Positions 5 to 37,953 of a stretch of 45,013 nucleotides of DNA are shown in pieces. The position numbers were made by a program, and so were the translations under genes. The stretch comes from Chitinophaga pinensis. GTDB taxonomy: Bacteria > Bacteroidota > Bacteroidia > Flavobacteriales_D > Crocinitomicaceae. The notes beneath the pieces are model-generated. The model did no database searches. It saw nothing but the letters and a program-made list of their open reading frames with translations, and had not been told where the DNA came from. Position 1 is the first letter of the stretch; each line of letters starts with the position of its first letter. The DNA lies in assembly GCA_943327315.2 (NCBI GenBank), contig CALPWQ020000007.1, forward strand, positions 1-45,013, read 5' to 3'.

Positions 5-70
5 GACCCCATCGGGGTCATATATCTGTTGAAATTGATGTTGAGATTGGATCACGACCCCATCGGGGTC
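5..70. repeat. Paired GACCCC-ATC-GGGGTC palindromes (copies 1 and 2)
   Basis: Two identical 15-nt palindromes (6-bp arms, 3-nt centre) lie at 5-19 and 56-70, 51 bp apart start to start. The same pair, with 52-bp spacing, recurs at 37732-37798. Such short GC-rich interspersed palindromes in an AT-richer genome resemble REP-type elements. No transposase gene is near, so the REP label is inference. Confidence 0.8.
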
Positions 71-97
71 GAACATTTGGTTTCATGGAGTTGATTA

Positions 98-166
98 AGA
101 TATTACTCGCTACGCTCGTTGGAGATATTACTCGCTACGCTCGTTGGAGATATTACTCGCTACGCT
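98..166. repeat. 25-bp tandem repeat with ctcgctacgctcg core
   Basis: Two full copies (98-122 and 123-147) and a partial third (148-166) of a 25-bp unit. Each contains the near-palindromic core CTCGCTACGCTCG. A variant of that core (CTCGCTGCGCTCG) lies at 268-279 inside the loop of the neighbouring hairpin, so the two structures share a sequence family. No coding potential is seen. Confidence 0.8.
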
Positions 167-253
167 CACGGGTTTGATTCTTCGCTCTCGCACCCGCTCT
201 CACTCTGATTCCTCTGGGATTATTGCATGAGCCCAACCGATCGACGTGCAATG

Positions 254-376
254 GATAAAAGCACTACTCGCTGCGCTCGTTGGTGCTTTTTTAGTTCAAC
301 TGCTCACTCAAGCTCCTGCGTCGCTTGGTTCGCGGTTGAACTAAAAAAGCACCGTCCTACGAACAGTGCTTTTATC
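254..376. repeat. Large nested inverted repeat next to tRNA-Lys
   Basis: The arm at 254-300 is inversely repeated at 335-376. The outermost 12 bp and the innermost 19 bp match perfectly; the segments between them differ. Each arm is itself a terminator-like hairpin: AAAAGCAC...GTGCTTTTTT reads on the plus strand in the left arm (257-292) and on the minus strand in the right arm. The 34-nt centre (301-334) is unique. The element looks like a MITE-like or duplicated-terminator structure; that reading is inference. Confidence 0.75.
343..373 (-). terminator. Intrinsic terminator of tRNA-Lys
   Basis: Read on the minus strand, this is a 13-bp stem (361-373 with 345-357, two G-U pairs), a 3-nt loop and a T run. 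It begins 7 nt past the tRNA discriminator base, so it is well placed to end the tRNA transcript. It is also the right arm of the larger inverted repeat. Confidence 0.75.
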
Positions 377-380
377 AGAG

Positions 381-453
381 TGATCCGGCTGGGATTCGAA
401 CCCAGGACCCATACATTAAAAGTGTATTGCTCTACCAGCTGAGCTACCGAATC
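381..453 (-). tRNA. tRNA-Lys (anticodon TTT)
   Basis: The minus strand folds as a 73-nt tRNA. The acceptor stem GATTCGG/CCGGATC (one G-T pair) is followed by discriminator A at 381. The D arm holds AGCTCAGCTGGTAGAGC, the anticodon loop is CTTTTAA (416-422, anticodon TTT at 418-420), and the T arm holds GGTTCGAATCC. The 3' CCA is not encoded and must be added enzymatically. It stands alone between a promoter-like sequence (470-500) and an intrinsic terminator (343-373). Confidence 0.97.
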
Positions 454-469
454 ATCGCTTTCGCGGGTG

Positions 470-500
470 CAAAGATAGTCGTATAATTTAGTTTATCAAG
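470..500 (-). promoter_or_regulatory. Promoter of tRNA-Lys
   Basis: On the minus strand a -33-like CTTG (500-497) is separated by 19 bp from TATCTTTG (477-470), a perfect match to the Bacteroidota -7 consensus TAnnTTTG. It lies 16 nt upstream of the mature tRNA 5' end. Confidence 0.75.
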
Positions 501-586
501 CGATAATCACTTTTTTTTGACTTTAAGCAGTGATTCATCGAACTCTTTTCCTATCCTTTGACTTCAAAATCTTTGCGGCGAGATGC

Positions 587-802
587 TTACGCGTCTTTCC
601 ACTTGATTTGAAATTCGATTTCGTTTTCTCCATCACCGCGCTCGTGCTCAATCGTAAATTCGGCTCTGTCGGGCACATAAATCGCCTCTCCAGCAATTGA
701 AATGCGGAAATTCTCTCCTTGCTCGATGCTATCCGCCAAACGACGCAATTTGTCAACGAATTCCTCCTTCGTGTAACTCTTTTCAATATCTCTTTCTGAC
801 AT
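587..802 (-). CDS. amphi-Trp domain-containing protein
   Basis: A 71-residue acidic cytoplasmic protein. The pattern YTKEEFVDKLRRLADSIEQG, then FRISIAGEAIYVPD, then alternating polar/hydrophobic strands ending in IEFQIKW, matches the small amphi-Trp family: one N-terminal helix followed by amphipathic beta-strands closing on a conserved Trp. The biochemical role of the family is not established. It is monocistronic, with a promoter-like sequence directly upstream (816-846). Family assignment is from pattern recognition. Confidence 0.82.
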   Translation of the reverse strand: MSERDIEKSYTKEEFVDKLRRLADSIEQGENFRISIAGEAIYVPDRAEFTIEHERGDGENEIEFQIKWKDA

Positions 803-815
803 AACTTTTTTTTTG

Positions 816-846
816 TAAAAATAGCAATTTGTTGGGCGTGTGCAAA
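816..846 (-). promoter_or_regulatory. Promoter of the amphi-Trp gene
   Basis: On the minus strand TTTG (846-843), a 19-bp spacer, then TATTTTTA (823-816). This fits the Bacteroidota -33/-7 layout with one mismatch in the -7 box. The start codon is 14 nt downstream. Confidence 0.6.
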
Positions 847-881
847 TTAGATCAATCCAATGAAAATCGTATTTTTAACTC

Positions 882-1391
882 ATGGAAAGAATTATTCTCA
901 TTGGTTATATGGGGTCGGGGAAAACCCTACTCGGTAAAGCGCTTGCTGAATCGCTCAACATTCGGTTTATCAACTCAGATTCAGATATTGAGCAACAAAC
1001 CGGAATGAGTATAGGTCAGATTTTTGAACAATACGGGGAAGATTATTTCAGGGATTTGGAACAAGAATACTTGAAAAATTTTGATACTCAGGAATCCTTT
1101 GTCTTAGCCACTGGTGGAGGAACGCCCTGTTACAACGATCAAATGACTGTGCTGAATGCTTTAGGTACTACAGTTTATCTTCATTGCAGCAATGAGACGC
1201 TGTTTTCGCGATTGAAAAACGAGCGCGAACACCGCCCACTCATTGCTGGCTTGAGTGATGATGAATTGCGCGAAGCGATTCAATACCGCATGATTCAGCG
1301 AGAGGAAATTTACCAAAAGGCCCAAATTATTCTTCCGGAAAATGAGCACACTGTTGTGGGACTTAGTCGTCATCTTCACCAAAAAAACTAA
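882..1391 (+). CDS. aroK: Shikimate kinase
   Basis: Phosphorylates shikimate to shikimate 3-phosphate with ATP in the chorismate pathway (cytoplasm). At 169 residues it is the normal length for AroK. Visible motifs: Walker A GYMGSGKT (residues 8-15), the shikimate-binding DSD and FRDLE segments, the ATGGGTP loop in the middle, and the lid region NEREHRPLI. A -7-like TATTTTTA lies at 870-877, just before the start, implying a very short leader. Its 3' end overlaps the convergent membrane protein gene by 29 bp. Confidence 0.96.
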   Translation: MERIILIGYMGSGKTLLGKALAESLNIRFINSDSDIEQQTGMSIGQIFEQYGEDYFRDLEQEYLKNFDTQESFVLATGGGTPCYNDQMTVLNALGTTVYLHCSNETLFSRLKNEREHRPLIAGLSDDELREAIQYRMIQREEIYQKAQIILPENEHTVVGLSRHLHQKN

Positions 1392-1935
1392 GTCCTTCTC
1401 CAGATTGTTCTTTCTTTAAAATGAAGTAATGGAGGGTGGACATGACAAAAATCACAATGAGGGAGATTTTGTCAAACGTACTCGTGTCGGTTCTGAAGTA
1501 ATCGTATCCCAAATAAAAAAACAACATACCGACGTAGATGACCACCCCAGCAATCAAAAGCGGGAAATAGCTTGTTTTCTTTCGCCAAAGCAGTGCCAAA
1601 GAACTGAGAACAATGAGCCAACACATAATGCTAAGGACAAAAAGAGTAGTCAGTCTTGAGGTAAATTCTTCAGCGGAAAAACCCAGTTTTGCCCCCCTTT
1701 CGGCGAATATGGTGTCGATGGCAACATGACGATGCACGTGAATCAAATGTTGAAAGGTCAATGCAACATATCCAACGGTATTCCAAACCAGAAAAAGTGA
1801 AGCAAGTGTTACCAGTATGTAAAAGGTGATTTTAGTATAAGCATCGGGCTCATTTTCGCCCAATAGGATGCGCAATAGCCAATTTTCTCGGCTTTGTTTT
1901 GCCCTTTGTCCTGAACTTGTTTGTGTGCGTGCCAT
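1363..1935 (-). CDS. Conserved hypothetical four-TM membrane protein
   Basis: A 190-residue inner-membrane protein of unknown function. The basic N-terminus (MARTQTSSGQRAKQSRENW) is followed by about four hydrophobic segments (roughly residues 37-60, 93-114, 124-146 and 157-173) and an acidic tail ending FFGEDDD. No catalytic motif was recognised. The gene is divergent from the transglutaminase-like gene (44 bp between starts) and its 3' end runs 29 bp into aroK on the opposite strand. Confidence 0.8.
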   Translation of the reverse strand: MARTQTSSGQRAKQSRENWLLRILLGENEPDAYTKITFYILVTLASLFLVWNTVGYVALTFQHLIHVHRHVAIDTIFAERGAKLGFSAEEFTSRLTTLFVLSIMCWLIVLSSLALLWRKKTSYFPLLIAGVVIYVGMLFFYLGYDYFRTDTSTFDKISLIVIFVMSTLHYFILKKEQSGEGLSFFGEDDD

Positions 1936-1979
1936 CCTTTGGTTAAAATTGCAGAAAATTTATTAGACTTCGCACTATA

Positions 1980-2621
1980 ATGGACGCATACCTGAAGGAT
2001 ACATTTTTTCTGGATTATACTCATGAACACTTTGATGCATTTCTAGCCCACGTCGATCCTACCTTACCTGAATCTGAACTGGCTGTGGCTTTGTATTACA
2101 ATGTGCGTGATGCCTTTCTCTACGACCCTTACCACCTTGATTTGACGAATGAGGGCTTGAAAGCATCAAATGTACTCGGTAAAAAACGCGCTTGGTGCGT
2201 GGAAAAATCAACTGTTCTTGTAGCATGTGCGCGACGTTTTGGTATTCCCTCAAGATTGGGGTATGCCATCGTTACCAATCACATTGGCGTTGAAAAATTA
2301 ACGTCCTACTTGCGGCGTGATGAAATCGTATTTCATGGTTTTGTAGAGCTTTTTGTGAATGGCTCTTGGGTAAAATGTACCCCTGCTTTTGATCAGCGTA
2401 TTTGTGCCCTTAGTAAAGTGTCGCCATTGGATTGGGACGGCAAATCAGATTCGTTATTTCAAGAGTTTGATCAGGGAAGGAAATTTATGGAGTATGTCCA
2501 TTTTTATGGGATCTTCGATGATGTGCCGATTCAATTGATGAATGAGGAGATGCAGAAATATTATCCGCATCTCTTTGAATCGGAGTTCAATACGCGTGAA
2601 TTTTCATTCAAACATCTATAG
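1980..2621 (+). CDS. Transglutaminase-like domain protein
   Basis: A 213-residue protein with the transglutaminase/protease-like core. The putative triad is Cys in RAWCVEKS (about residue 72), His in VFHGFVELF (about 120) and Asp in TPAFDQR (about 139), in the correct order and spacing. There is no signal peptide, so it is probably cytoplasmic. In bacteria the family mostly acts as peptidases or amidases on unknown substrates. It stands alone between a divergent and a convergent gene, giving no context for a substrate. Confidence 0.8.
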   Translation: MDAYLKDTFFLDYTHEHFDAFLAHVDPTLPESELAVALYYNVRDAFLYDPYHLDLTNEGLKASNVLGKKRAWCVEKSTVLVACARRFGIPSRLGYAIVTNHIGVEKLTSYLRRDEIVFHGFVELFVNGSWVKCTPAFDQRICALSKVSPLDWDGKSDSLFQEFDQGRKFMEYVHFYGIFDDVPIQLMNEEMQKYYPHLFESEFNTREFSFKHL

Positions 2622-2627
2622 CTAAAC

Positions 2628-3476
2628 CTACTTCACAAGCACCACTAAATATTTCGACACTTTCCAAAATTCATGTGGGTCCTTGATGCGAATTTTTGTG
2701 TTTTTCCCAAAGGGCACAAGTGTGTAGGAATCGGATGGGTGGTCGGTGATGAATTGTGGTTTCGATCCTTCAACAAAGATTTCATTGTCCTCTCGCATAT
2801 CAATTTTCGAAAAGTATTTCTCATTAAAATCTCCAGCAATACGGACGCTTTTGGCAATGCCTATGAATCCTTTTTTATGCTCAATCACTTGATTTTTAAT
2901 GAGTTCCTTTTCCGTTCCGTAGGAATAATATGCGGTGTTGATCTCGTCTTTAAGTGTTTCTGCCAAGTCATCTTTTTGACGATAAGCATCAAAAAGTCGA
3001 GAATAGGAATGGTTCATTGAACTTAATTCTTGTTGAAATTCAGCAATTTGGAATTCTTTGGCATCCATGGTTTGAATTAAATCATGCATCATCGTTTCCA
3101 ATTCACTGATTTTTTTGTCTTTCACATTCAGCTGCTTCGTCAATTGAGTTGCTTTTTTAGTGTTTTCGATCCGTAAAAAGTTGATGTAGTTGATTTGACT
3201 TAAGATCCATTCCCTATCGCTTTCTGTTTGTTCAGGATCACTTGCGCGTACACGGATTTCTTGCTGCTTTAGTTCGATTGCCTCCAAATTGGATCTAATT
3301 TGATTGTAGAATTCCAAGGAAGTGTTCAGCATTAAATCTTTTTCTTCATTCTCTTTTTCCAGTTGAGCAATTCGATTTCGAAGGCTTGAATCATCTGTTT
3401 TTGAAGATGGGGTAGATTTTTGCTCACAAGAAACGAGGAGCATTAGCAAAATGGTGAGGGAAAAGGAGTGGTTCAT
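2628..3476 (-). CDS. Coiled-coil lipoprotein, Cbp1-like family
   Basis: A 282-residue predicted SPII lipoprotein: the N-terminal hydrophobic stretch ends in lipobox LVSC (Cys at residue 17). Residues about 30-170 are a long heptad-like coiled coil. The C-terminal third (YYSYGTEKELI, KGFIGIAKS, DFNEKYFSKID, SDSYTLV) matches the Bacteroidota group annotated as Cbp1-type collagen-binding adhesins. That name rests on a distant relative and binding is not shown here. A surface or periplasmic location is likely. It converges on the transglutaminase-like gene with a 6-bp gap. Confidence 0.75.
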   Translation of the reverse strand: MNHSFSLTILLMLLVSCEQKSTPSSKTDDSSLRNRIAQLEKENEEKDLMLNTSLEFYNQIRSNLEAIELKQQEIRVRASDPEQTESDREWILSQINYINFLRIENTKKATQLTKQLNVKDKKISELETMMHDLIQTMDAKEFQIAEFQQELSSMNHSYSRLFDAYRQKDDLAETLKDEINTAYYSYGTEKELIKNQVIEHKKGFIGIAKSVRIAGDFNEKYFSKIDMREDNEIFVEGSKPQFITDHPSDSYTLVPFGKNTKIRIKDPHEFWKVSKYLVVLVK

Positions 3477-3521
3477 GTCTTTTGAATTTCAAGTAAATAT
3501 AGCCCTTTTCATCGCAAATTG

Positions 3522-3529
3522 TATCTTTG
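3522..3529 (+). promoter_or_regulatory. -7 element before the M61 peptidase gene
   Basis: TATCTTTG exactly matches the TAnnTTTG consensus, 17 nt before the start codon. No convincing -33 box was found. Confidence 0.5.
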
Positions 3530-3546
3530 ACATGTAAATTAAAATC

Positions 3547-5334
3547 ATGAGACAAATCCTATTTATTTGCGTCACTTTTTTGTTGACAAACACGACATTG
3601 GCACAAGCAGTTCACTATGAATTGCGGATGCCAAATCCACAAAATCATTATTTTCAGGTCGTCATGGAATTGTCGGATTTTAAGGAATCTGAAGTACACA
3701 TTAAAATGCCAGTTTGGGCGCCAGGATCTTATTTGGTGCGTGAATTTTCCCGCCATGTTGATCTGGTCTATGCGACGGATGAAACAGGAAAGAAATGGCG
3801 TTTAGAAAAGGACGCAAAAAATGCGTGGGTACTGAAAACAGGAAAGGCCAAGAAAATTCGAGTATCCTACGAGGTATATTCGTTCGAATTGTCTGTTCGA
3901 ACAAGCTTTTTGGACTTGACACATGGCTATGTGAGTGGCAGCGGAATGTTTATGTATGTCGATGGACATATGGGCCATTCGGGTGAATTGACAATTTTTC
4001 CTTATACAGCGTTTCATACCATTAGCACGGCCTTGCCAAGAAAGGGGGAAGGGGTAACGGCGGATGGTTCAGAGAGATTTGTGTTTAATAATTACGATCA
4101 TCTTGTCGATTGTCCCATTGAAATTGGAAATCAGGAGGTGTTTGAGTTTATGGCAGCAGGTGTTAAACATACCGTTGCGATGTATGGCATTGCCAATTAT
4201 TCGGTTTTCGAATTGCAAGAAGACATGGCAAAAATTGTGGAGGCCGCTACGGATGTTTTTGGTCAAAATCCAAACAAGGAATACACCTTCATTATTCACA
4301 ATGTTGTGGATGGTCAAGGTGGTTTAGAACACTGCAATTCGACCACGCTTAGCGTAAATCGTTGGACGTACCAAGGCAAGGCATATCTCGATTTTTTAAA
4401 CTTGGTGGCACATGAATATTTTCATCTGTGGAATGTGAAACGTATCCGTCCAATTGAACTCGGCCCTTTTAATTACGATGAGGAGAATTATACGACCTTG
4501 CTGTGGGTAATGGAGGGCTTTACGTCGTATTATGACGAACTTTTGATGCGAAGAGCAGGCTACATCACTGAAAATGAATACCTATCAAAGCTGGAATCTA
4601 CTGTGAATTATGTCGAAGGTTCTGTGGGTGCAAGGGTTCAGGCTGTAGCGCATGCAAGCTTCGATGCGTGGATTAAAGCGTATCGTCCAAACGAGAACAG
4701 TTCAAACACGACGATGACCTATTATTCCCGCGGAGCGATGCTTGCGGCGGTTATAGACGCCATGATTATCGATAAATATTACGGCAAGAAATGCTTGGAT
4801 CATTTTATGCGTGTTTTGTACGACAAGTATTATACAAAGTTGAAACGTGGATTTTCTGATAACGAGTTTCAGTCGGAGCTGTCGGCATTTTTAGATCTTG
4901 ACATGACCGATTTCTTCAACCGCCATGTGTACGGTACTGAAATGGTTCCGTTTGAAAAGTACTTCGGTCCTGCAGGTGTGGATGTTGGCTTTCGAAAAAT
5001 TACCACACCATCGTTCGGTGCGGGCTTAAAACAAGATGGTAGCCGCTTGTCGGTGCGGTCGGTGCGCAGTGGTTCGGCAGCTGAAAATGCCGGATTGAGC
5101 GTGAACGATGAAATCATTGGCTACAATGGCTTCCGAGTAGATCAAAGTTCGCTTGAGTCGTTCTTATCGTCCTTGGAGGTAGGAGAAAACATGAAATTAT
5201 TGATTTCGCGCGACCAAATTCTTTTGGAGTTAACTGTTGTGATGACGGAGTTTGAACGACCTCAATTCTCCTTTAAAGGTTCCACTCAGGTGGATCGTGA
5301 AAAGTTGCGTAAATACTGGTTTAGATCGATTTAA
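3547..5334 (+). CDS. M61 family metallopeptidase with PDZ domain
   Basis: A 595-residue secreted zinc aminopeptidase of the M61 (glycyl aminopeptidase) family. It has an Sec signal peptide (residues 1-19, ending TLAQA), then the N-terminal beta domain with PVWAPGSYLVREFSRH. The catalytic domain carries GGLEHCNST, zinc motif HEYFH (residues 289-293) followed by LWNVKRIRP, and MEGFTSYY, which supplies the third zinc ligand Glu. A C-terminal PDZ domain (about 490-565) carries SGSAAENAGLSVNDEI. It probably cleaves N-terminal residues of short peptides in the periplasm. The Asp-box protein gene starts 1 nt after its stop, so the two are probably co-transcribed. Confidence 0.93.
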   Translation: MRQILFICVTFLLTNTTLAQAVHYELRMPNPQNHYFQVVMELSDFKESEVHIKMPVWAPGSYLVREFSRHVDLVYATDETGKKWRLEKDAKNAWVLKTGKAKKIRVSYEVYSFELSVRTSFLDLTHGYVSGSGMFMYVDGHMGHSGELTIFPYTAFHTISTALPRKGEGVTADGSERFVFNNYDHLVDCPIEIGNQEVFEFMAAGVKHTVAMYGIANYSVFELQEDMAKIVEAATDVFGQNPNKEYTFIIHNVVDGQGGLEHCNSTTLSVNRWTYQGKAYLDFLNLVAHEYFHLWNVKRIRPIELGPFNYDEENYTTLLWVMEGFTSYYDELLMRRAGYITENEYLSKLESTVNYVEGSVGARVQAVAHASFDAWIKAYRPNENSSNTTMTYYSRGAMLAAVIDAMIIDKYYGKKCLDHFMRVLYDKYYTKLKRGFSDNEFQSELSAFLDLDMTDFFNRHVYGTEMVPFEKYFGPAGVDVGFRKITTPSFGAGLKQDGSRLSVRSVRSGSAAENAGLSVNDEIIGYNGFRVDQSSLESFLSSLEVGENMKLLISRDQILLELTVVMTEFERPQFSFKGSTQVDREKLRKYWFRSI

Positions 5335-5335
5335 T

Positions 5336-6634
5336 ATGAAGCAACTCCTCTTTTTACTCGGGTTTATTCCATTTTTATCTTTTGCACAATCGCAATTCCC
5401 GAATGTTCAACTGAAAAATACAGGGGTGACAAATGTCATCAGCGGCTTATGTGAACCTGCGATCGCCATTGACCCCAAGAATTCTTCGATTATGGCGGCT
5501 GGCAGCATTATGAATGCCTATTATTATTCCACGGATGCAGGAATCACATGGAAAAGTTCCTCAATGTCTAGCAAATATGGGGTATGGGGCGATCCAGTTC
5601 TTTTGTTTGACACCACAGGTAGGATCTATTACTTTCACCTCAGTAACTACAAAAAAGCATCTTGGATTGATCGCATCGTTTGTCAGTCGGCAGAATCAGT
5701 AAGCGGTAAATTCAATCAAGGTTCTTTCCCGAAACCAAATGGCACCAAAGCGCAGGACAAACATTGGGTAGCACTCGATCCCCAGACAAATGACATTTTC
5801 ATGACCTGGACACAATTCGATGCGTATGATTCCCGTGAACCAAGAGATTCTTCCCGCATTATGTTCTCGAAATCTTCCGATCAAGGAAAAACATGGAGTG
5901 ACCCTCTGCGCATTTCTAAATTTGCAGGGGATTGTCAAGATGGCGATTATACGGTTGAAGGCGCTGTTCCAGCCGTTGGACCAAACGGTGAAATTTATGT
6001 GACCTGGACAGGTCCTAAAGGTCTTGTTTTTCAACGGTCATTGGACAGGGGTAGAACGTGGCTCCCAGAAGAGCAAATTTTACATGTTCATCATGGTGGA
6101 TGGGAAATGACCATTCCTGGAATGTACAGAGCCAATGGGCTTCCAATCCTCCAATGTGATTTGAGTCATGGACCCAATCGAGGAAATTTGTACCTGAATT
6201 GGTGCGATCAAAAAAATGGATACAACAACACGGACGTTTGGTTGTCAGTATCTGAGGATGACGGTAAGTCCTGGTCTGATCCAAGAAAAGTCAATCAGGA
6301 TACAACAAAAACGCATCAGTTTTTTACATGGATGTGTGTGGACCAGTCGAATGGCAATCTCTATTTTGTATACTACGACCGCCGCCATTATAAGGACAAT
6401 CAAACAGATGTTTATCTCTCTGTTTCTAGGGACGGGGGGATGACATTTACCGATCACCGGATCTCAGATGAATCATTTATTCCAGATCAGGAAGTGTTCT
6501 TTGGTGATTATTTGAACATCGCAGCGGTCAACGGCACCATCAGACCCATTTGGCCTCGTATGGATTATGGAAAAATAACCTTGTGGATTGCCTTGATTCA
6601 GGAAGAAGAATTGCTTAAGTCAAGCGGGAAATAA
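5336..6634 (+). CDS. Secreted Asp-box (BNR/sialidase-fold) protein
   Basis: A 432-residue protein with a signal peptide (MKQLLFLLGFIPFLSFAQ). It carries five Asp-box repeats of the form SxDxGxTW/F: STDAGITW, SSDQGKTW, SLDRGRTW, SEDDGKSW and SRDGGMTF. These indicate a six-bladed beta-propeller of the sialidase/BNR type. The F/YRIP arginine motif of true sialidases was not seen, so sialidase activity is doubtful; a glycan-binding or other hydrolase role is possible. The start at 5336 is preferred over an upstream in-frame ATG because it opens directly on the signal peptide and sits 1 nt past the M61 stop. It has no T9SS C-terminal domain. Its 3' end overlaps the convergent Cupin_5 gene by 20 bp. 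Confidence 0.85.
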   Translation: MKQLLFLLGFIPFLSFAQSQFPNVQLKNTGVTNVISGLCEPAIAIDPKNSSIMAAGSIMNAYYYSTDAGITWKSSSMSSKYGVWGDPVLLFDTTGRIYYFHLSNYKKASWIDRIVCQSAESVSGKFNQGSFPKPNGTKAQDKHWVALDPQTNDIFMTWTQFDAYDSREPRDSSRIMFSKSSDQGKTWSDPLRISKFAGDCQDGDYTVEGAVPAVGPNGEIYVTWTGPKGLVFQRSLDRGRTWLPEEQILHVHHGGWEMTIPGMYRANGLPILQCDLSHGPNRGNLYLNWCDQKNGYNNTDVWLSVSEDDGKSWSDPRKVNQDTTKTHQFFTWMCVDQSNGNLYFVYYDRRHYKDNQTDVYLSVSRDGGMTFTDHRISDESFIPDQEVFFGDYLNIAAVNGTIRPIWPRMDYGKITLWIALIQEEELLKSSGK

Positions 6635-7088: not shown

Positions 7089-7100
7089 GCCTGAAGGATG

Positions 7101-7925: not shown

Positions 7926-7941
7926 TCTGCTAAAATAGTGT

Positions 7942-8529: not shown

Positions 8530-8578
8530 AATTTTTGTGCTGAATGCCCTAAAATTAACCATTTTCTATGGAACGAAT

Positions 8579-21735: not shown

Positions 21736-21845
21736 ATTACGAATTACGAGTTACGATTTTGGTGACTGAGGTTCTCGAAGCCACCAGCGAGTTACGAATT
21801 ACGAGTTACGATTTTGGTGACTGAGGTTCTCGAAGCCACCAGCGA
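21736..21845. repeat. 55-bp tandem duplication
   Basis: Two nearly identical 55-bp units (21736-21790 and 21791-21845; only the first base differs) followed by a decayed partial copy. Each contains 'gaattacgagttacg' and 'ggtgactgaggttctcgaag'. It lies just past the ffh stop. No coding potential is seen. Confidence 0.85.
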
Positions 21846-21889
21846 GTTAGGGATTACGAATTACGTGTTACGAGTTAGGAATTATTGGT

Positions 21890-22026
21890 CATTAGTAACT
21901 AGTCATTAGTAACTAGTCATTAGTAACTAGTCATTGGTAACTAGTCATTAGTAACTAGTCATTAGTAACTAGTCATTAGTAACTAGTCATTAGCAACTAG
22001 TCATTAGTAACTAGTCATTCGTAACT
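21890..22026. repeat. 14-bp tandem repeat array (CATTAGTAACTAGT)n
   Basis: Nine full copies plus one partial copy of a 14-bp unit run from 21890 to directly next to the lpxH stop codon (22027-22029 on the opposite strand). Copies 4 and 8 carry single substitutions; the last one is diverged. Each unit holds the palindrome ACTAGT. There are no spacers, so it is not a CRISPR array. Copy number is likely to vary between strains (inference). Confidence 0.9.
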
Positions 22027-22818
22027 CTAACTATCAAGTCCCTCAGGAAATGCATACTCCGCAATAGCGCCATCCCTCCAGCACTTAAAGGTAAGTTCCC
22101 CATCAAATCGGGCAAAGGTTCTGTAATTGATCCAATCGCCCAAATTGAGGTAACTTGAATTTTCAGCAACACTCAAACGCAAGGGAAGGTGTCGATGACC
22201 AAAAATATAGTGGTCGAAATGTTCCTTTTTGTTGATCTCCTTGCAGTATTGGTACAACCATTCATTTTCTTTGCCGAGAAATGTTTTGTCCTCGGCGATA
22301 CTTGATGCACGGCTCGTTTTTGAAAAATAGGAAGCGATAGAAATGCCGAAATTAGGGTGCAGTCGCGCGAACATCCATTGAGAGATCCGGTTATCAAACA
22401 CTTTCTTAATAAACTTATATCCGCGGTCTCCTGGTCCTAATCCATCGCCATGACCGATATACAGTTTCTTGCCGTTGATTTCTCGCGTTATTGGTGAACG
22501 GTGAAGTTGAAATCCCAGTTCTTTGGGCAGATAGTCAAAGATCCACATGTCGTGGTTGCCTGTAAACACATGAATAGGAATGCCTGAATCTGTGATTTCC
22601 GCAATTTTTCCTTGAAGACGCACGAAGCCCTTAGGAATGGCATATTTGTATTCAAACCAAAAGTCGAAAATGTCGCCAACAAGAAAAATCTCTGTGGCAT
22701 CTTTACGGACATAATCAAGCCATGAGACCACTGCTTTTTCGCGCTCCAAACTCGTTTCATACGTGGGCACTCCCAAGTGGAAGTCGGAGGCAAAATATAT
22801 GACTTGAGGTGAATTCAA
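22027..22818 (-). CDS. lpxH: UDP-2,3-diacylglucosamine diphosphatase (LpxH-like)
   Basis: Hydrolyses UDP-2,3-diacylglucosamine to lipid X in lipid A synthesis, at the inner face of the membrane. 263 residues of calcineurin-like fold with all metal motifs: SDFHLG (D12, H14), VGDIFDFW (D49), TGNHD (N88, H89), GHGDG (H123) and FGHRH. It is the last gene of a long run; gatB, the TlpA-like proteins and lpxK are upstream. It could also be the LpxH2 subtype, which sequence inspection cannot separate. Confidence 0.92.
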   Translation of the reverse strand: MNSPQVIYFASDFHLGVPTYETSLEREKAVVSWLDYVRKDATEIFLVGDIFDFWFEYKYAIPKGFVRLQGKIAEITDSGIPIHVFTGNHDMWIFDYLPKELGFQLHRSPITREINGKKLYIGHGDGLGPGDRGYKFIKKVFDNRISQWMFARLHPNFGISIASYFSKTSRASSIAEDKTFLGKENEWLYQYCKEINKKEHFDHYIFGHRHLPLRLSVAENSSYLNLGDWINYRTFARFDGELTFKCWRDGAIAEYAFPEGLDS

Positions 22819-28405: not shown

Positions 28406-28416
28406 GCAGGATTGAT

Positions 28417-29833: not shown

Positions 29834-29838
29834 ATAGG

Positions 29839-29846
29839 CAAAGTTA
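29839..29846 (-). promoter_or_regulatory. -7 element of the VTC-lpxH operon
   Basis: TAACTTTG on the minus strand, a perfect TAnnTTTG match, ends 5 nt before the VTC start codon. This would put the transcription start at or within about 2 nt of the ATG, a nearly leaderless mRNA. The -33 box is weak. Confidence 0.55.
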
Positions 29847-29925
29847 AGAAATTATTAATCTTCTTAACCCTTTGATGTCGTTTCCTTTTAAATCAGTCGA
29901 AAATATGTGGTTTTTAATCAATGAT

Positions 29926-29933
29926 TATCTTTG
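29926..29933 (+). promoter_or_regulatory. -7 element of purT
   Basis: TATCTTTG ends 4 nt before the ATG at 29938, divergent from the VTC promoter about 80 bp away. It supports the shorter start and implies a leaderless or nearly leaderless transcript. Confidence 0.55.
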
Positions 29934-29937
29934 TCGC

Positions 29938-31098: not shown

Positions 31099-32234
31099 AG
31101 CAGTCCTAGAGCGATCTTCATGCGAATTACGCGTTTAGACGCGGCATCAACTTTTTTCTTGAATGCAGCATCTGCGCGGTATTTTTTGAGAATGTCGGCA
31201 TGTGCTTTTTTCGCATCGACAGGCATCAGTACAATGTCACATCCCGCAGCAATTGCCTTTTCTTCACAATTTGGTATGCTTGCTACACCGCCCATGTTCA
31301 TCGCATCGGTTACGATCAGTCCTTTAAAGCCAAACTCTCCGCGTAGAAGTGTCGTAACGATTGTTTCTGAAGTTGTTGCGGGCATGCCTTTGGTATCGTA
31401 GGTCGGATTGTTCGTTACGCCAATGTGTGCCACCATGATGGACAATACACCATTTTTAATGAGTTCAGGATAATTGCTAATTTCTTTCAATTCACCATCA
31501 ATCATTTGCAGTGATTTGTGTGTGTCTCCACTTACGAGCCCATGACCGGGAAAGTGTTTCGCTGTAGCCAAAATATTGTGCGATTGTGTTTGCTGAATGA
31601 AGGCATCTGACCACGGGATGATGTTTGCAGGAATAGCACCAAAGCTTCTGAATCCAACGGTTTTGTTTGGGGACATGTCCACCACTGGTGAGAAGTTGTA
31701 GTTGATTCCAATGGCATTTAACTCTTTTGAAATCAAATCAGCACATTCGCGTACTTCATCAATGTTGACCATTTCATTGGCTTTCTTCACCGGAGTGGAG
31801 CCTATAATTTTCCGATTGACTAAGCTAGGTTCGGCGTCTGCACTATAGAGGAAAGGCAGGTTGCCAAGCGTGTCGTTCATTTGCTCAAAATTTTTGATCC
31901 ATGCAGTGAACTCTTCTTTGGTTCCATTGAGCATCAATACACCGCCGATGATGCGTTGACGAATGTGTGCTATAATCGTAGCTTCTGTCTGACCTAAACG
32001 ACCCACTGCGGGCATGATGAGTTGTGCCACAATCGCCGTGTCGTCAAGTTGTGAAAATACGCGTTCTACCTCGGCATCAAGATCCTTGTTGTCTGTCAGG
32101 AAATCACTGAGTTTAAATTCTTTCTGAACTTCGGGCTGAATGCGTTTTTCAGTTTTTTTCTCTGAATTCGATGTTTGTGCACAGCTGTAAAAAAGCGTAA
32201 CAAGGAGGCTTGGTAAAATGATATATTTTCTCAT
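31095..32234 (-). CDS. GH3 family beta-N-acetylhexosaminidase-like lipoprotein
   Basis: A 379-residue glycoside hydrolase family 3 protein of the NagZ type. N-terminal lipobox LFYSC (Cys at residue 18) indicates a lipoprotein, unlike cytoplasmic NagZ. Motifs: [19 protein letters not shown], with the Asp-His dyad used by NagZ enzymes as the acid/base, and [12 protein letters not shown], with nucleophile D310. It probably removes beta-linked GlcNAc from peptidoglycan or other glycans outside the cytoplasm. Its start overlaps the YdjM-like gene stop by 4 bp, so they are co-transcribed. Confidence 0.9.
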
Positions 32235-33247
32235 GGATGAAAGATCTTGTTAAAATAGAGGTCAAAGTTAAAGTCCTTCAAGGCACGAGAAGGCACGAAC
32301 CTTGTTGTTTTTTGCACAATCCCATTGTCAACAACCATTTTGAAACCCATGATAGGGGTAGTTTTTGCGCCTCCCGTAATTTTTGAAACACAGCCAAAAC
32401 GCAAGTCATAAAAATAAAACGCATTTCCTTCTAAGCTTGTTGTATAGTAGCCATCGGAGATAAATTTGAGCTGCTTGGAATAATTCTTATCTGGCCATTT
32501 CAATTGGTGCAATTCTTTTTGATGTTTTGGAATGGTGTCCACCTCTTTCGGATTAAAGTCGTAGAAAATGGATTTGTAGGCGACGTAATAATTCGCATCA
32601 TCTTCAGCGAGCATCATCCAATAAAAACTGGTGAATGGCATTGGAGCCACCATGGCGTTTCTCGTTTTTAAATGACTTTCGGTAAAATAGTTGTTCGCAT
32701 TTGCCAAAATAATCAACTTTGTGATTACCCCGAAAAGCAGGTAACTTGTTGAATAAATGAGTCCACCGTTATTCCATTTTCGGCGGGAGATACTCTCTCG
32801 TGTTTTTGCCATGGCAATGATCAGGCAAATCATAAATGGCAAAGTGTACATTGGATCAATGATGAATACCGTGTTGAATTTAATGCGCAGGTCGAATGGC
32901 CAAAAAAACGATGTCCCATAATTCGTAAACATATCCAACATAGGGTGAGTAATAATCCCCCAGAAGAAGAGGCTAATCCACATTTTTCGTTCGTATTTTT
33001 CCTTGTAAAGTTTATGAACAAGCCAACCGAGTAGTGGGGCCATAAGGCAGGCAAAAAGAATGGAATGGGAAAGCCCACGATGCACTAAAGCACCATCAAT
33101 GGGGTGGTATAAGCCACTGAAAATGACATCTAAATCGGGAATTGTTCCAGCAATAGCCCCCCATAGTGGTGCTTTGTTGCCAATTTTTCGTCCTGCGACG
33201 GCCTCGGCCACTGCAGCACCGAGGACAATTTGAGTAAGTGAGTCCAT
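32231..33247 (-). CDS. YdjM/DUF457 family membrane-bound metal-dependent hydrolase
   Basis: A 338-residue membrane protein. The N-terminus MDSLTQIVLGAAVAEA, then GAIAGTIPDLDVIF, VHRGLSHSILFA and GIITHPMLDMFTNYGT are the conserved His/Asp blocks of the DUF457 (YdjM, LexA-binding inner-membrane hydrolase) family. About four or five hydrophobic segments are visible. The C-terminal region (about 200-338) is soluble and beta-rich. Substrate unknown. It is translationally coupled (ATGA) to the GH3 lipoprotein gene. Confidence 0.88.
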   Translation of the reverse strand: MDSLTQIVLGAAVAEAVAGRKIGNKAPLWGAIAGTIPDLDVIFSGLYHPIDGALVHRGLSHSILFACLMAPLLGWLVHKLYKEKYERKMWISLFFWGIITHPMLDMFTNYGTSFFWPFDLRIKFNTVFIIDPMYTLPFMICLIIAMAKTRESISRRKWNNGGLIYSTSYLLFGVITKLIILANANNYFTESHLKTRNAMVAPMPFTSFYWMMLAEDDANYYVAYKSIFYDFNPKEVDTIPKHQKELHQLKWPDKNYSKQLKFISDGYYTTSLEGNAFYFYDLRFGCVSKITGGAKTTPIMGFKMVVDNGIVQKTTRFVPSRALKDFNFDLYFNKIFHP

Positions 33248-33309
33248 AATCTATACCCTTCAAAATTATAGTTAAAAACAATGGGGCAAGCAATTGTTCA
33301 ATTTTGTAT

Positions 33310-33330
33310 CTTCAGTTACCTAAACTGAAG
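33310..33330. promoter_or_regulatory. Perfect palindrome directly before radC
   Basis: CTTCAGTT-accta-AACTGAAG: 8-bp arms and a 5-nt loop, ending 2 nt before the radC ATG (33333). A weak -7-like TATCTTCA (33307-33314) overlaps the left arm. It could be an operator, or a hairpin in the leader affecting ribosome access. Function is inferred from position only. Confidence 0.5.
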
Positions 33331-33332
33331 TT

Positions 33333-34022
33333 ATGAGAAACCACCTATCCATCAAGTCGTGGGCTGAAGATGACCGTCCGCGCGAAAAAATGTTAAGCAA
33401 AGGAAGATCAGCACTTTCTGACTCTGAGTTGCTGGCCATTTTAATTGCAACTGGATCAACAAATAAATCAGCGTTGGATTTAGCCAAAGAATGCCTCACC
33501 TTGGCTGGAAATGACCTCGCAAAATTATCACGGCTCACCGTGAACGAGCTCTGCAAGATAAATGGCATTGGCCCAGCGAAAGCAGTCACATTAGTGGCAT
33601 CTTTGGAGTTGGGCAGACGAAGAAAAGACAAGGCCGTGGACAAAAAAATGCGCATTGTTTCTTCCCAAATTGTGTATGACCACATGCGGCAATATTTACA
33701 AGATTTGTCCCACGAAGAATTTTATGCCATCTTGTTGAATCGCGCCAATGAGGAAATTCGTACTGTTCAAATTTCTTCTGGGGGCTTATCAGGAACCGTT
33801 GCCGATGGAAAAATGATTTTTAAAGCGGCGATAGAAAACAGTGCACATGGAATGATCCTCGTGCATAACCATCCGAGTGGACAGCTTTTTCCGAGCGATA
33901 GCGACAAAAGTTTGACGCGCAAAATGGTTCAATTTGGAAGCTTTATCGATTTGCCCATCTTGGATCACCTCATTTTCGCCGATAATGGTTATTTTAGCTT
34001 CGCTGATCAAGGAATACTTTGA
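33333..34022 (+). CDS. radC: RadC/JAB domain DNA repair-associated protein
   Basis: A 229-residue protein with the N-terminal helix-hairpin-helix region (LCKINGIGPAKAVTLVASLELGR at about 70-92) and a C-terminal JAMM/MPN+ metalloprotease fold with HNHPSGQLFPSDSD (H178, H180, D191). The family is named for DNA repair but its biochemical role is unsettled. It opens a plus-strand run in which wecB follows after 18 bp. Confidence 0.95.
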   Translation: MRNHLSIKSWAEDDRPREKMLSKGRSALSDSELLAILIATGSTNKSALDLAKECLTLAGNDLAKLSRLTVNELCKINGIGPAKAVTLVASLELGRRRKDKAVDKKMRIVSSQIVYDHMRQYLQDLSHEEFYAILLNRANEEIRTVQISSGGLSGTVADGKMIFKAAIENSAHGMILVHNHPSGQLFPSDSDKSLTRKMVQFGSFIDLPILDHLIFADNGYFSFADQGIL

Positions 34023-34040
34023 TTGAATCAATTTTAACTC

Positions 34041-35186
34041 ATGAAACGCATTATAACTATTGTCGGTGCACGTCCTCAAATCATTAAATCATCAGCGATA
34101 AGTCGCGCTGTGAAAGGTCCATTCAAGAATCTACTTGAAGAGATTATTGTGCATACGGGTCAGCATTATGATGACAACATGTCGGATGTCTTTTTTAATG
34201 AATTGGATATCCCATTGCCCCATTACAACTTGAATGTTGGCAGTGCTTCACACGGTGTGCAAACGGCGCGAATGATTGAAGGATTGGAAACAATTTTCGT
34301 GAAAGAAAAACCGTCGGCCGTTTTGGTCTATGGCGACACCAATTCTACCATTGCCGCAGCGCTAGCCGCAATAAAAATACATATCCCGGTTGTACATGTT
34401 GAAGCAGGCTTAAGAAGTTTCAATAAATCCATGCCTGAAGAAGTGAATCGCATCGCTTGTGATCACATGTCAACATTGCTCTTTACACCAACTGTGACGG
34501 GCCTAGAGAACCTGAAGCGTGAGGGCTTTAGGTTTGATCACAATGAAAAAGCAAGTGCAGATCACCCCAAAATATACCATTGTGGGGATGTGATGTACGA
34601 CAACAGTCTTCACTTTTCTGATTTGTCATCTAGTTCGTCCACACTTTTGAAGTCCTTGAACCTAGAAAGTAAATCATTTGTTCTAGTGACTGTTCATCGG
34701 GATTCCAACACAGATATCTCATCGAATCTTCAGGGTATTTTCAAGGCACTCATTCAATTGAGTGAAAAGTATAAGCAAACAATTGTTCTTCCGCTGCATC
34801 CAAGAACAAGACATATGTTGGAGAAACAACTGACTCCTGAATTGTATCAATCGGTCATTGGCAATGATGAGATTAAAATCATTCCACCTGCAGGTTTCTT
34901 GGATATCATTGCCTTGGAAAAAAGCGCTTCGTTGATCATCACGGATAGCGGAGGACTTCAAAAGGAGGCATTCTTCTTCAAGAAGCCATGCATTATTTTA
35001 AGAGAGCAAACAGAGTGGATTGAAATCGTTGAAAACGGGAATGCTTTATTGACCGGTGCCTCAGAAGAAAAAATTCTCGATGCCTATGTCCAATTGACCA
35101 CCTATAATGACCAAAGTTTCCCGGAATTTTATGGCGACGGCAAAGCTGCAGAGTTTATTTGCCAAAAAATCATTGAAGAACTTTAG
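34041..35186 (+). CDS. wecB: UDP-N-acetylglucosamine 2-epimerase (non-hydrolysing)
   Basis: Interconverts UDP-GlcNAc and UDP-ManNAc for surface polysaccharide synthesis (cytoplasm). 381 residues. Motifs: TIVGARPQIIKSSAISRA, HTGQHYDDNMSDVFF, VYGDTNSTIAA, HVEAGLRSFNKSMPEEVNR, VTVHRDSN and IITDSGGLQKEAF. The polysaccharide deacetylase gene begins 1 nt after its stop, an arrangement that ties the two to one glycan pathway. No wecC-like dehydrogenase or glycosyltransferase is nearby. Confidence 0.96.
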   Translation: MKRIITIVGARPQIIKSSAISRAVKGPFKNLLEEIIVHTGQHYDDNMSDVFFNELDIPLPHYNLNVGSASHGVQTARMIEGLETIFVKEKPSAVLVYGDTNSTIAAALAAIKIHIPVVHVEAGLRSFNKSMPEEVNRIACDHMSTLLFTPTVTGLENLKREGFRFDHNEKASADHPKIYHCGDVMYDNSLHFSDLSSSSSTLLKSLNLESKSFVLVTVHRDSNTDISSNLQGIFKALIQLSEKYKQTIVLPLHPRTRHMLEKQLTPELYQSVIGNDEIKIIPPAGFLDIIALEKSASLIITDSGGLQKEAFFFKKPCIILREQTEWIEIVENGNALLTGASEEKILDAYVQLTTYNDQSFPEFYGDGKAAEFICQKIIEEL

Positions 35187-35187
35187 G

Positions 35188-36474
35188 ATGCTGATTTATG
35201 TTGATGAAATATCGGAACGTTTAATCTACACCTTGGATTTTGTTTTTAAGGAACGTGGGTTAAGCTATTCCTTAACGAACGACGGTCAACATTTTATTTC
35301 TTCCTTATCAGCGAAAATCAACTATTCTGAACGCTATTTTTCAAATGTACTCCAGGTTAAGCCCTCAACCGTTCTCTTTGATGAGGAGGTGCTTATTTAT
35401 GAAATAGGCAATGGCACCTTTGAAGACGAAGAGTGTCTAACCTTCAACAAAGTCATTGATCCATTGGCTTCCATTTTTTATGTGATTACCCGAATGGAAG
35501 AGTCCACGAGTACCTTTGAAGATCGACATGGCCGATTTCCTTTGGAGCGAAGTGTTTTGCATCGTTTTGGATGGATTGAGAAGGCGATGTGTGATCGCTG
35601 GGCAGTGGATTTCCTGCGATTTCTTGACCGAAAGGAGCTCATTTCGTTTAGGAATCGTTCAACTGACGTTGAAATTATTCCAACCTTCGATATTGATAAT
35701 GTGTTTGCCTATCAATGGAAAAATGGGCTTAGAAAATGGGTTTCAAGTGCTAGAGACATCATAAAAGGAGATCGACGCCGAATTTTAGAACGTAGAGATG
35801 TCATAAAAGGAGCCAAAAAAGATCCCTACGATACATTTGAAGATATTCTTGCTGTTCGCAAAGCTGGATTCGCCGTTCGTATGTTTTGGTTGTTGGGCGA
35901 TTATGCAAAATTTGACCGAAATGTTTCGCACAAAGATCCACGCCATCAAGCCTTGATCAAAACAATGTCTGAATCCTGTATTGTAGGCATACACCCAAGC
36001 TATAAATCGAATAGCTATGAATATTATCTGCATGAAGAAAAGGAACGCTTGGAGGAAATCATTTTGCAAACAGTTGAACATTCTCGTCAACATTTTTTAA
36101 AGCTTAAAATTTCAGTGACTTACCCGATTTTGATTGAACAGGGAATCCGACACGATTATACCATGGGATTTGCCGAAAATGTTGGATTCAGAGCCGGCAC
36201 AGCAAGGCCATTCCATTGGTTTGACCTAAAGAAAAATAAAGCCACCGAGCTGATTGTGCATCCTTTTGCCTATATGGACGGTACCTTAAATGAATACATG
36301 AAGTTGTCACCACAAGATGCGAAAGAAACCATACTCAAACTCTACAAGGAAATTCAAAAATTCGGTGGAGATTTTTTATGTGTTTGGCACAACGAAACAA
36401 TCGGCGACTATGGGATTTGGGAAGGTTGGCGTGAAGTTTTGAATTATACATTATCTCTAAACGAACAAAAATGA
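35188..36474 (+). CDS. Polysaccharide deacetylase-like protein
   Basis: A 428-residue protein without a signal peptide. The start at 35188 is preferred because it follows the wecB stop directly; the longer frame would overlap wecB by 80 bp. The N-terminal region (about 1-120) resembles the domain found ahead of deacetylases in Bacteroidota polysaccharide loci. The NodB-like core follows, with IPTFDIDNVFAY (motif 1, Asp), GIHPSYKS (motif 2, His) and late ICH-type FLCVWHNETIGD. It is expected to remove N- or O-acetyl groups from a sugar or glycan intermediate. DUF423 overlaps its end by 4 bp. Confidence 0.85.
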   Translation: MLIYVDEISERLIYTLDFVFKERGLSYSLTNDGQHFISSLSAKINYSERYFSNVLQVKPSTVLFDEEVLIYEIGNGTFEDEECLTFNKVIDPLASIFYVITRMEESTSTFEDRHGRFPLERSVLHRFGWIEKAMCDRWAVDFLRFLDRKELISFRNRSTDVEIIPTFDIDNVFAYQWKNGLRKWVSSARDIIKGDRRRILERRDVIKGAKKDPYDTFEDILAVRKAGFAVRMFWLLGDYAKFDRNVSHKDPRHQALIKTMSESCIVGIHPSYKSNSYEYYLHEEKERLEEIILQTVEHSRQHFLKLKISVTYPILIEQGIRHDYTMGFAENVGFRAGTARPFHWFDLKKNKATELIVHPFAYMDGTLNEYMKLSPQDAKETILKLYKEIQKFGGDFLCVWHNETIGDYGIWEGWREVLNYTLSLNEQK

Positions 36475-36869
36475 ATCGAACAATCGCATTGACGGGAACT
36501 ATTCTGCTTCTCATTTCCATTTTGTTAGGCGCTTTTGGCGCGCATGCTCTGAAGGAAATTTTAACGGAAGAACAACTTGTTTCCTTTGAAACGGGTGTGC
36601 GCTATCAAATGATTCACGGTCTCGGCTTATTGATTCTTGGCTTGAATGCGGACCGGCATCAATTTCAACTTAAAGCGATTTTTCGGCTTTTATTGATCGG
36701 GGTGCTCTTGTTTTCTGTCTCCATTTATTTTCTTGCTATGCAAGATGTGTTGGGCATGAAACTTAAGTTTTTAGGTCCGATCACACCACTTGGTGGATTG
36801 CTTATGATGCTTGGCTGGGGTATTTACGGGGTTCAACTTTTCCGATCAACATCTAGTCATGGACAATAA
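36471..36869 (+). CDS. DUF423 (YgdD-like) membrane protein
   Basis: A 132-residue inner-membrane protein with four hydrophobic segments and the DUF423 pattern: ALTGTILLLISILLGAFGAHALK, FETGVRYQMIHGLGLL and GPITPLGGLLMMLGW. Function unknown. It overlaps the deacetylase by ATGA and the MBL gene by 11 bp, so it is inside one operon. Confidence 0.92.
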   Translation: MNRTIALTGTILLLISILLGAFGAHALKEILTEEQLVSFETGVRYQMIHGLGLLILGLNADRHQFQLKAIFRLLLIGVLLFSVSIYFLAMQDVLGMKLKFLGPITPLGGLLMMLGWGIYGVQLFRSTSSHGQ

Positions 36870-37638
36870 GTTTACTGTCACAATCTTAGGTTCGGGCACC
36901 TCTCAGGGTGTTCCCGTCATTGCCTGTGAGTGCCATGTGTGTTCAAGCCAAGAACCAAAGGACCAGCGTCTTCGCGCATCCATACTCATCAACTGGCACG
37001 GACATAATTTTGTGATTGACACGGGACCAGATTTCAGACAGCAAATTTTAAAGTCGAAGATTAAAAGTCTCAGAGCACTCTTGTATACCCACGAACATAA
37101 GGACCATTTGGCAGGCATGGACGATGTACGCGCTTTCAATCACCGCGAAGAACGTGACATGGAAATTTTCTGTACACATCGAGTCGCAGAAGCATTAAAA
37201 AGAGAGTATAGTTATGTCTTTTCAGGTGAGAGGTATCCTGGAATCCCATCGGTCAATATTCAGTTGATAGAAAATAGAACCTTTCGCCTCCCCGATGGGC
37301 CAATCGTCACACCCATTGAAGTGATGCATTATAAGATGCCAGTGTTTGGATACCGAATAGGCGACTTTACCTATATCACGGATGCAAAAACGATATCTCC
37401 AGAGGAACGAAATAAAGTGCGCGGTACGAAAGTATTGATTGTAAATGCACTGCATCGATCTGAACACATTTCACATTTCAATTTGGAGGAAGCTTTGGAA
37501 TTCATCAATGACATACAGCCAGAAATGACCTATTTGACGCACATTTCACATTTATTTGGTACTCATGAGGAAATCATGGCTTCTTTGCCACCGAATGTTT
37601 TTGTCGCCTTTGATGGGCTAGAATTGGCGGTGGAATGA
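36859..37638 (+). CDS. Metallo-beta-lactamase fold hydrolase (PhnP-like)
   Basis: A 259-residue cytoplasmic metal-dependent hydrolase. N-terminal TILGSGTSQGVPVIACECHVC with clustered Cys resembles the PhnP/RNase Z-like phosphodiesterase branch. FVIDTGPDFRQQ, THEHKDHLAGMDDVRAF (HxHxDH), and the late ALHRSEHISHFN and LTHISH supply further metal ligands. The start at 36859 gives the conserved beta-strand TVTILGSG immediately. Substrate unknown; a cyclic phosphodiester is a family-based guess. It is the last gene of the radC run and ends at a repeat island. Confidence 0.9.
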   Translation: MDNKFTVTILGSGTSQGVPVIACECHVCSSQEPKDQRLRASILINWHGHNFVIDTGPDFRQQILKSKIKSLRALLYTHEHKDHLAGMDDVRAFNHREERDMEIFCTHRVAEALKREYSYVFSGERYPGIPSVNIQLIENRTFRLPDGPIVTPIEVMHYKMPVFGYRIGDFTYITDAKTISPEERNKVRGTKVLIVNALHRSEHISHFNLEEALEFINDIQPEMTYLTHISHLFGTHEEIMASLPPNVFVAFDGLELAVE

Positions 37639-37661
37639 GGATTAAGAATGAAAAATTAAGA

Positions 37662-37953
37662 ATTACGAATCATTGTTGTCCTACTAAATCCATTTTCATG
37701 TTTTATCCAATCGATCTAACCTTGGTTTTCTGACCCCGTCGGGGTCAAACCTCTGTAACCATAGGCCCTCCCGAAAAACCCATGACCCCATCGGGGTCAA
37801 ACATTTTAAATACTAAATAACTAAATCACATAAAATAAAAACCACCATTACTTTAAATTCACTTCTTAAAACCAATGATTTCAATGGGTTCAAGAAGAGC
37901 AGAAAATTTTTATCGGACAACAGTGATTACGAATCATTGTTGTCCTACTAAAT
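37662..37953. repeat. 28-bp direct repeats bounding a 236-bp insert
   Basis: Identical 28-bp copies at 37662-37689 and 37926-37953 flank the segment that holds the paired palindromes. The right copy is also the right part of an inverted repeat (37915-37928 with 37932-37945, 14-bp stem, one G-T pair, 3-nt loop). Confidence 0.85.
37732..37798. repeat. Paired GACCCC-(G/A)TC-GGGGTC palindromes (copies 3 and 4)
   Basis: 15-nt palindromes at 37732-37746 (centre GTC) and 37784-37798 (centre ATC), 52 bp apart. Copy 4 is followed by aaacattt and copy 2 at 56-70 by gaacattt, so the second member of each pair shares flanking sequence. This suggests that a two-palindrome unit was dispersed. Confidence 0.85.

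Follow-up and report, generated by a model that had tools for sequence, protein, structure and literature searches.

Paired REP-like palindromes in a Crocinitomicaceae genome and their putative link to IS200-like Y1 transposases

Paired palindromes in the window and in the genome

The window, a stretch of 45,013 nt, is the entire contig C7 (CALPWQ020000007.1) of an assembly registered as Chitinophaga pinensis and placed by GTDB in the Crocinitomicaceae (here G000; 3.04 Mb, 178 contigs). It contains two copies of a short unit composed of two palindromes, which an initial annotation, made from the letters alone, had read as an element resembling repetitive extragenic palindromes (REP) or bacterial interspersed mosaic elements (BIME), with a REP-associated tyrosine transposase (RAYT) as the expected partner. 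All four GACCCC(A/G)TCGGGGTC 15-mers were confirmed where that annotation had placed them, at 5/56 and 37732/37784. The start-to-start distance is 51 bp in unit 1 and 52 bp in unit 2, and the shared AACATTT lies directly 3' of both second palindromes (GAACATTT from 71 and AAACATTT from 37799). Unit 1 begins at base 5 because the window is a whole contig. The features discussed below are the following.

5..19, plus strand: palindrome 1 of unit 1, GACCCCATCGGGGTC, a hairpin with a 6-bp stem and a 3-nt loop
25..31, plus strand: TCTGTTG, the tag heptamer of unit 1 in its relaxed form (TYTRTWR), 5 nt past the palindrome, the offset of TTTRTAR at Y1-linked hairpins
56..70, plus strand: second palindrome of unit 1, with GAACATTT directly downstream, from the sequence and the alignment of 27 pairs
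37670..37926, plus strand: 257-bp repeat resembling a miniature inverted-repeat transposable element (MITE) and holding unit 2, multicopy, missing from the corresponding locus of G024, G010 and G015
37732..37746, plus strand: palindrome 1 of unit 2, GACCCCGTCGGGGTC, from the sequence and folding
37752..37758, plus strand: heptamer tag of unit 2, TCTGTAA, 5 nt past the palindrome
37784..37798, plus strand: second palindrome of unit 2, with AAACATTT directly downstream, resembling a terminator on the minus strand

A chance origin of the palindromes was ruled out, with no 15-mer in 100 dinucleotide shuffles of the window and 57 exact copies in the genome, against none for a reversed-pattern control. 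Exact neighbours less than 100 bp apart were direct repeats in 20 of 20 cases, at spacings of 51 bp (7), 52 bp (10), 53 bp (2) and 55 bp (1), and the nearest opposite-facing exact neighbours were found from 106 bp upward. When up to one mismatch was allowed per palindrome, with loops restricted to ATC, GTC, TTC or ATA in the first palindrome and to ATC or ATA in the second, 27 pairs were obtained, containing 47 of the 57 exact copies. Among the 10 copies left outside pairs, five have possibly lost their partner at a contig end (C3:55554, C53:21003, C79, C103 and C105:25), one has a long-loop partner (C140), one a broken long-loop partner (C9), and three are singles (C3:55292, C17 and C53:20897). 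The long-loop variant of palindrome 2, ~18 bp longer, was seen at L037 and L057 in G000 and at L100, L102, L107 and L112 in G024, with a broken form in L034. A contig end lies within 500 bp of 16 of the 32 copy clusters, and the assembly therefore tends to break at the palindrome repeats. The clusters are mainly intergenic, only two of the 32 lying inside a predicted open reading frame (ORF), short in both cases. The picture that the initial annotation had named as contrary to its reading, with mostly single, randomly spaced palindromes and no transposase in the genome or its relatives, was not found.

The alignment of the 27 pairs showed that palindrome 1 is mostly followed by RAAYCTTTGTAAC, with A3, G9 and T10 invariant in 27/27, that a variable stretch and then A(T/C) precede palindrome 2, and that mostly RAAC follows it, with A2 and A3 invariant. 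As read from this alignment, the spacers are of one common type in 16 pairs and diverged in the other 11, with unchanged spacing. Folded as single-stranded DNA, each window unit gives both hairpins (z of -2.6 and -2.3 versus shuffles).

Hairpins around Y1 genes in relatives

GTDB species were scanned with an alignment of the Y1 transposases of the genus, yielding at least 583 relatives, from which the best 80 were kept; these loci were picked by Y1 protein similarity alone, with palindromes disregarded, and are not a random sample. Near the 80 genes, GACCCCNNNGGGGTC was present in 33 copies within 700 bp and in 9 copies farther away (0.309 versus 0.029 per kb, ~11-fold). Hairpins within 700 bp numbered 160, as against 13-26 in 10 Markov-1 shuffles, and hairpin pairs 46-57 bp apart numbered 50, as against none in the shuffles. 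The spacing between neighbouring hairpins fell at 50-54 bp in 41 cases, with 8 in the next-highest 5-bp bin. At least one 15-mer hairpin lay within 900 bp of the Y1 gene in 44 of the 80 loci, and a pair was present in 17/80 loci near the gene versus 3/80 far from it (Fisher p 0.0013), the far zone having less non-coding DNA (23.2 kb versus 40.0 kb in the near zone).

Y1 genes flanked by the identical 15-mer, in one orientation or the other, were seen in L171 (Profundicola), L172 (a Flavobacterium metagenome-assembled genome, MAG) and L179 (a Chitinophagaceae MAG). Across 20 genomes, 54 of 149 palindromes lay within 1 kb of a Y1 gene, a biased rate since these genomes were chosen for hairpin-bearing Y1 loci (the count leaves out L187). 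Paired hairpins were found in 15 of the 23 rows of one Y1 subclade versus 2 of the 60 rows of its sister; support is only moderate for the 23-row fork (89/68) and is 100/98 for the 60-row fork. In this tree, from which the genus hits L148 and L150 were left out, the placement of the long-branch rows G002, G019 and G040 is unsure, and G002 and G040b were assigned to the paired-hairpin group by inspection of their loci, not by the automatic flag. The honest reading of these data is that the element family is linked to enzymes of subclass 1.2. Loci with a Y1 gene of another subclade (L196, L207, L216, L224, L237 and L247) carry TGCTCC/GGAGCA, GGCTCC, AGCTCC or TATCCC/GGGATA hairpins with the same type of heptamer at offset 5.

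A heptamer at a fixed distance from the hairpins

The motif TTTATAG was first spotted by eye after Y1-linked hairpins in a few loci, and TTTRTAR was then counted on all 142 hairpins lying within 900 bp of the 80 Y1 genes. Where it occurred within 30 nt of a hairpin it stood at offset 5 in 48 of 50 cases, distributed over 24 loci and many different stems; in the loci of G000 the offset was 5 in 17/17. The zone up to 900 bp contained 47 tagged hairpins, spread over 24 loci, and the zone beyond it 14, in 4 loci; 5 shuffles gave none. Across the 45-kb window, the relaxed tag at offset 5 was found at the two pairs only (TCTGTTG and TCTGTAA).

Near Y1 genes, 44 hairpin pairs had a spacing of 45-57 bp; the tag was on the left member in 15 of them and on the right member, facing left, in 11. 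Both outer tags point inward around a centre hairpin in 5 of the 16 triples listed, namely L171, L177, L187 and L194 within 900 bp and L178 farther away. The window units would resemble the left two-thirds of such an inward-tagged triple.

The Y1 transposase in the genome and the genus

The only Y1 match in G000 is a 144-aa protein (contig C97) that has a Y---Q--HH motif and, as aligned, retains the HUH and tyrosine residues. It scores above the cut-off of the NCBIfam IS200 model, as do all 6 of the Y1 proteins tested, while the REP_Tyr_transpos model gave 26-34 bits against a cut-off of 80 for 4 of the 6 (the remaining 2 not being listed). Within Y1 set A2, both HUH histidines, WQ, Y116, Q120, H123 and H124 are invariant in 12/12 and D55 is conserved in at least 90%, and the genus Y1 profile retrieves solved transposases, including that of ISHp608. 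Judged by these models and motifs, the linked transposase is an IS200-like TnpA-Y1 of subclass 1.2 and not a TnpA-REP of class 2, and the likely partner is not a classical RAYT. The expectation of the initial annotation that a Y1 gene would be flanked by the palindrome was borne out in relatives (L171, L172 and L179, and with a related family in G002) but not at the sole Y1 gene detected in G000.

Some Y1 match was present in 17 of 26 genus genomes. The palindrome, searched as GACCCCNTCGGGGTC, was found in 5 of 25 (G000, G004, G010, G015 and G024, the own genome included), 4 of which have the own-type Y1; this co-occurrence is weak evidence, because the same genomes are the nearest relatives. 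The same-genus G002 contains 13 RACCCYNNNRGGGTY palindromes genome-wide (control 1), four of which are grouped as two pairs (spacings of 51 and 52 bp) that bracket its Y1 gene. A profile search for Y1 remnants in 5 genomes gave nothing beyond the known genes.

Other Y1 loci of the genus were also seen to carry repeats. In L136, L145 and L146 (G007, G005 and G021) another Y1 gene is followed by arrays of the palindrome TGACTTCTCTGAAGTCA in both orientations, and L141 (G022) and L149 (G003) show repeated CCGCAGGAT/ATCCTGCGG hairpins. The L141 protein (191 aa, YIHNNP motif) is similar to subclass 2.6, which is flanked by atypical structures according to the available part of a 2018 survey (PMC6006769).

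The carrier repeat of unit 2

The 257-bp repeat that holds unit 2 has imperfect terminal inverted repeats (TIRs), TCATTGTTGTCC.../...GGACAACAGTGA, with ends set by eye; the TIRs described are those around this carrier. In G004 the orthologous repeat is present with one palindrome instead of two. Since the carrier is absent from G024, G010 and G015 and has a single palindrome in G004, it is a repeat that can move or be lost, and the palindrome-to-palindrome step of 52 bp was either gained in one lineage or lost in the other (G000 versus G004). The carrier lies between the two copies of a direct repeat of 28 bp (37662-37689 and 37926-37953) that includes a TIR end, and the G024 ortholog keeps one similar copy; recombinational loss in G024 is therefore as possible as insertion in G000.

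Both carrier flanks accompany 9 of the 16 pairs with the common spacer type and one flank accompanies the other 7 (1 of them cut by a contig end), so part of the palindrome spread may be hitch-hiking on the carrier. Mosaic copies at L042, L043 and L048 have left and right halves joined at the palindromes.

Other repeats in the window

A tandem array with a 14-bp unit (TAGTCATTAGTAAC-like) at 21839-22040 adjoins two 55-bp repeats. Two stretches beside tRNA-Lys (380-453), at 98-186 and 254-376, contain tandem repeats of 25 bp together with an inverted repeat of 22 bp, and pieces similar to these are also present in contig C148.

Discussion

The reading that we favour, at a probability of roughly two in three, treats the pair as a non-autonomous, REP-like single-strand element, most likely a minimal substrate of the IS200/IS605 type served in trans by a Y1 transposase of subclass 1.2. 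The unit of ~66-70 bp would comprise palindrome 1, the heptamer 5 nt downstream (TYTRTWR in the G000 units, TTTRTAR elsewhere), ~24-28 nt more, and palindrome 2 in the same orientation. Both palindromes could extrude as hairpins on one single strand, as on the lagging-strand template, where the subclass-1.2 TnpA-Y1 HUH transposase would recognise hairpin and heptamer in trans; cutting and rejoining of the strand by the enzyme could then multiply or delete units and build tandem arrays in steps of ~51 bp. We infer the recognition, cutting and mobilisation by Y1, the role of the heptamer, and a past or present cognate enzyme for G000 from sequence comparison.

Several observations weigh against this reading. 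The palindrome, with up to one mismatch, was not found on the 12.2-kb contig C97 around the Y1 gene of G000, a general search for hairpins at this gene did not reveal it either, and the stretches examined around the orthologs of this gene in G024, G010 and G015 contained other hairpins only. In the midpoint-rooted tree, the own-type Y1 sits on a long branch that is not part of the hairpin-associated clade. Two genus genomes have palindromes and no Y1 match, namely G004 (91% complete, 6 palindromes) and G008 (94% complete, 7 AACCC-type palindromes, some ~51 bp apart). Among the 80 loci, 36 had no 15-mer hairpin within 900 bp of the Y1 gene, and with predicted coding DNA masked the near-versus-far excess was ~two-fold for hairpins (3.0 versus 1.4 per kb) and ~1.5-fold for pairs (0.92 versus 0.60 per kb). 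As to the heptamer, its strict form is at neither window unit, the own-genome forms TTTGTAAC and TGTAAC are not enriched at the 80 Y1 loci, the inward tag is missing in 18 of the 44 hairpin pairs, and the Y1-linked pairs of G002 and G040 lack it by eye. A clean empty site outside the MITE was not obtained at L039, where the orthologs in G024, G004, G015 and G010 have no pairs, or at L040, where no pair was found in the G010, G004 and G024 stretches and G015 has one palindrome; at both places the spacers are too diverged for boundaries. The comparison at L053 gave mostly repeat matches. The cognate enzyme of G000 may be lost, unassembled, or the divergent own-type Y1 itself.

The pair could instead be a passenger, immobile in itself, inside the TIR-bounded 257-bp repeat, which a DDE-type transposase would move. 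The carrier-type spacer of 16 of the 27 pairs and the position of window unit 2 inside a copy absent from three relatives agree with this, but the 11 pairs with diverged spacers keep spacing and layout, the mosaics join their halves at the palindromes, and the same layout recurs at Y1 genes of distant Bacteroidota, so that we regard a passenger role as unlikely. Improbable, in our view, is a conserved RNA or transcription signal, with the paired hairpins terminating transcription in both directions or stabilising mRNA at the ends of operons. Of the 15 clusters placed between two ORFs, seven are convergent, window unit 2 among them, and palindrome 2 of that unit is terminator-like on the minus strand (one such call in 37600-38100, versus 0.4 in shuffles); however, 5 of the 15 are tandem and 3 divergent, the T-run derives from the MITE-type spacer, and the 11 other spacers have none by eye. 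A comparison of 8 own-genome loci with Rfam (E up to 1) gave only tRNAs and sub-threshold hits, and a known RNA family was rejected; such a signal would also leave the linkage to Y1 genes unexplained. A site for an architectural or regulatory protein, formed by two dyads, would account for the constant 51-52 bp, about five turns of B-DNA, but the patchy distribution in the genus (5 of 25 genomes), the concentration of copies at Y1 genes in relatives and the single palindrome of the orthologous repeat in G004 make it hardly credible.

A single-strand element served by subclass 1.2 can be compared with several known systems. Like REP, BIME and REPIN elements with their RAYT, the window-type elements are short, multicopy, intergenic hairpins, often paired, which cluster beside a Y1 HUH gene in relatives in a REPtron-like manner. 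They differ in that the pairs are direct and not inverted, with a 6-7-bp stem, a 3-nt loop and a heptamer 5 nt from the hairpin, and in that the partner is of the IS200-like subclass 1.2 and not TnpA-REP of class 2. A GT[AG]G foot is also lacking, since GTAG, GTGG, CGTC or a reverse complement adjoins the 57 exact copies, on either side, 3 times only, and their commonest 3' neighbours are AAAC (24) and GAAC (15). The initial REP-like or BIME-like reading thus holds for copy number, mainly intergenic location, pairing and near-constant spacing, and fails on orientation and foot. The element is a real REP-like pair, but it is not a member of REP/BIME as defined by foot, orientation and enzyme class; by analogy, it probably works in a similar way.

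In IS608-like elements the left and right ends each have a hairpin, and both hairpins face the same way on a single strand. Miniature IS200/IS605 elements with such ends share this arrangement with the pairs, which differ in having no transposase gene between the hairpins and in that their ends and cleavage tetranucleotides are undefined. End hairpins of IS200/IS605 are described in the 2018 survey, whose available part lists subclass 1.2 with a Y---Q--HH motif and a 'no' for REP and portrays its members as low in copy number and generally lacking typical IS200 end structures (PMC6006769). The hairpin-linked proteins match this subclass in motif, size (~145-155 aa) and occurrence in Bacteroidota, and depart from that entry in that one subclade is flanked by hairpin arrays. 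CGTC- and GTAG-tagged repeats are likewise small, palindromic and found as dimers, the CGTC ones also in Bacteroidetes, but in the accessible part of their description head-to-tail dimers are absent, under-represented or negligible and the CGTC repeats have no transposase association (PMC3733652); the pairs described here are head-to-tail, and neither tag regularly adjoins the palindrome. A literature search, with most subscription journals outside its reach, found neither a tie between subclass 1.2 and palindromes nor a fixed heptamer.

On a wider scale, the pairs may belong to a Bacteroidota-wide REP-like system dispersed by subclass 1.2, with varying stems, a constant heptamer (TTTATAG or kin) at 5 nt, and direct pairs at ~51 bp or inward-tagged triples, a proposal to which we give slightly better than even odds. 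In such a system, the invariable heptamer would encode recognition or cleavage, and the stem would vary, co-evolving with the enzyme. The role of subclass 1.2 was left open by the account in the 2018 survey (low copy, generally no IS ends, no REPs), and a candidate substrate is now defined for it, composed of a hairpin, 5 nt and a heptamer, at ~51-bp spacing. If this is true, REP-type elements would extend beyond class-2 enzymes to the IS200-like branch, with a different layout.

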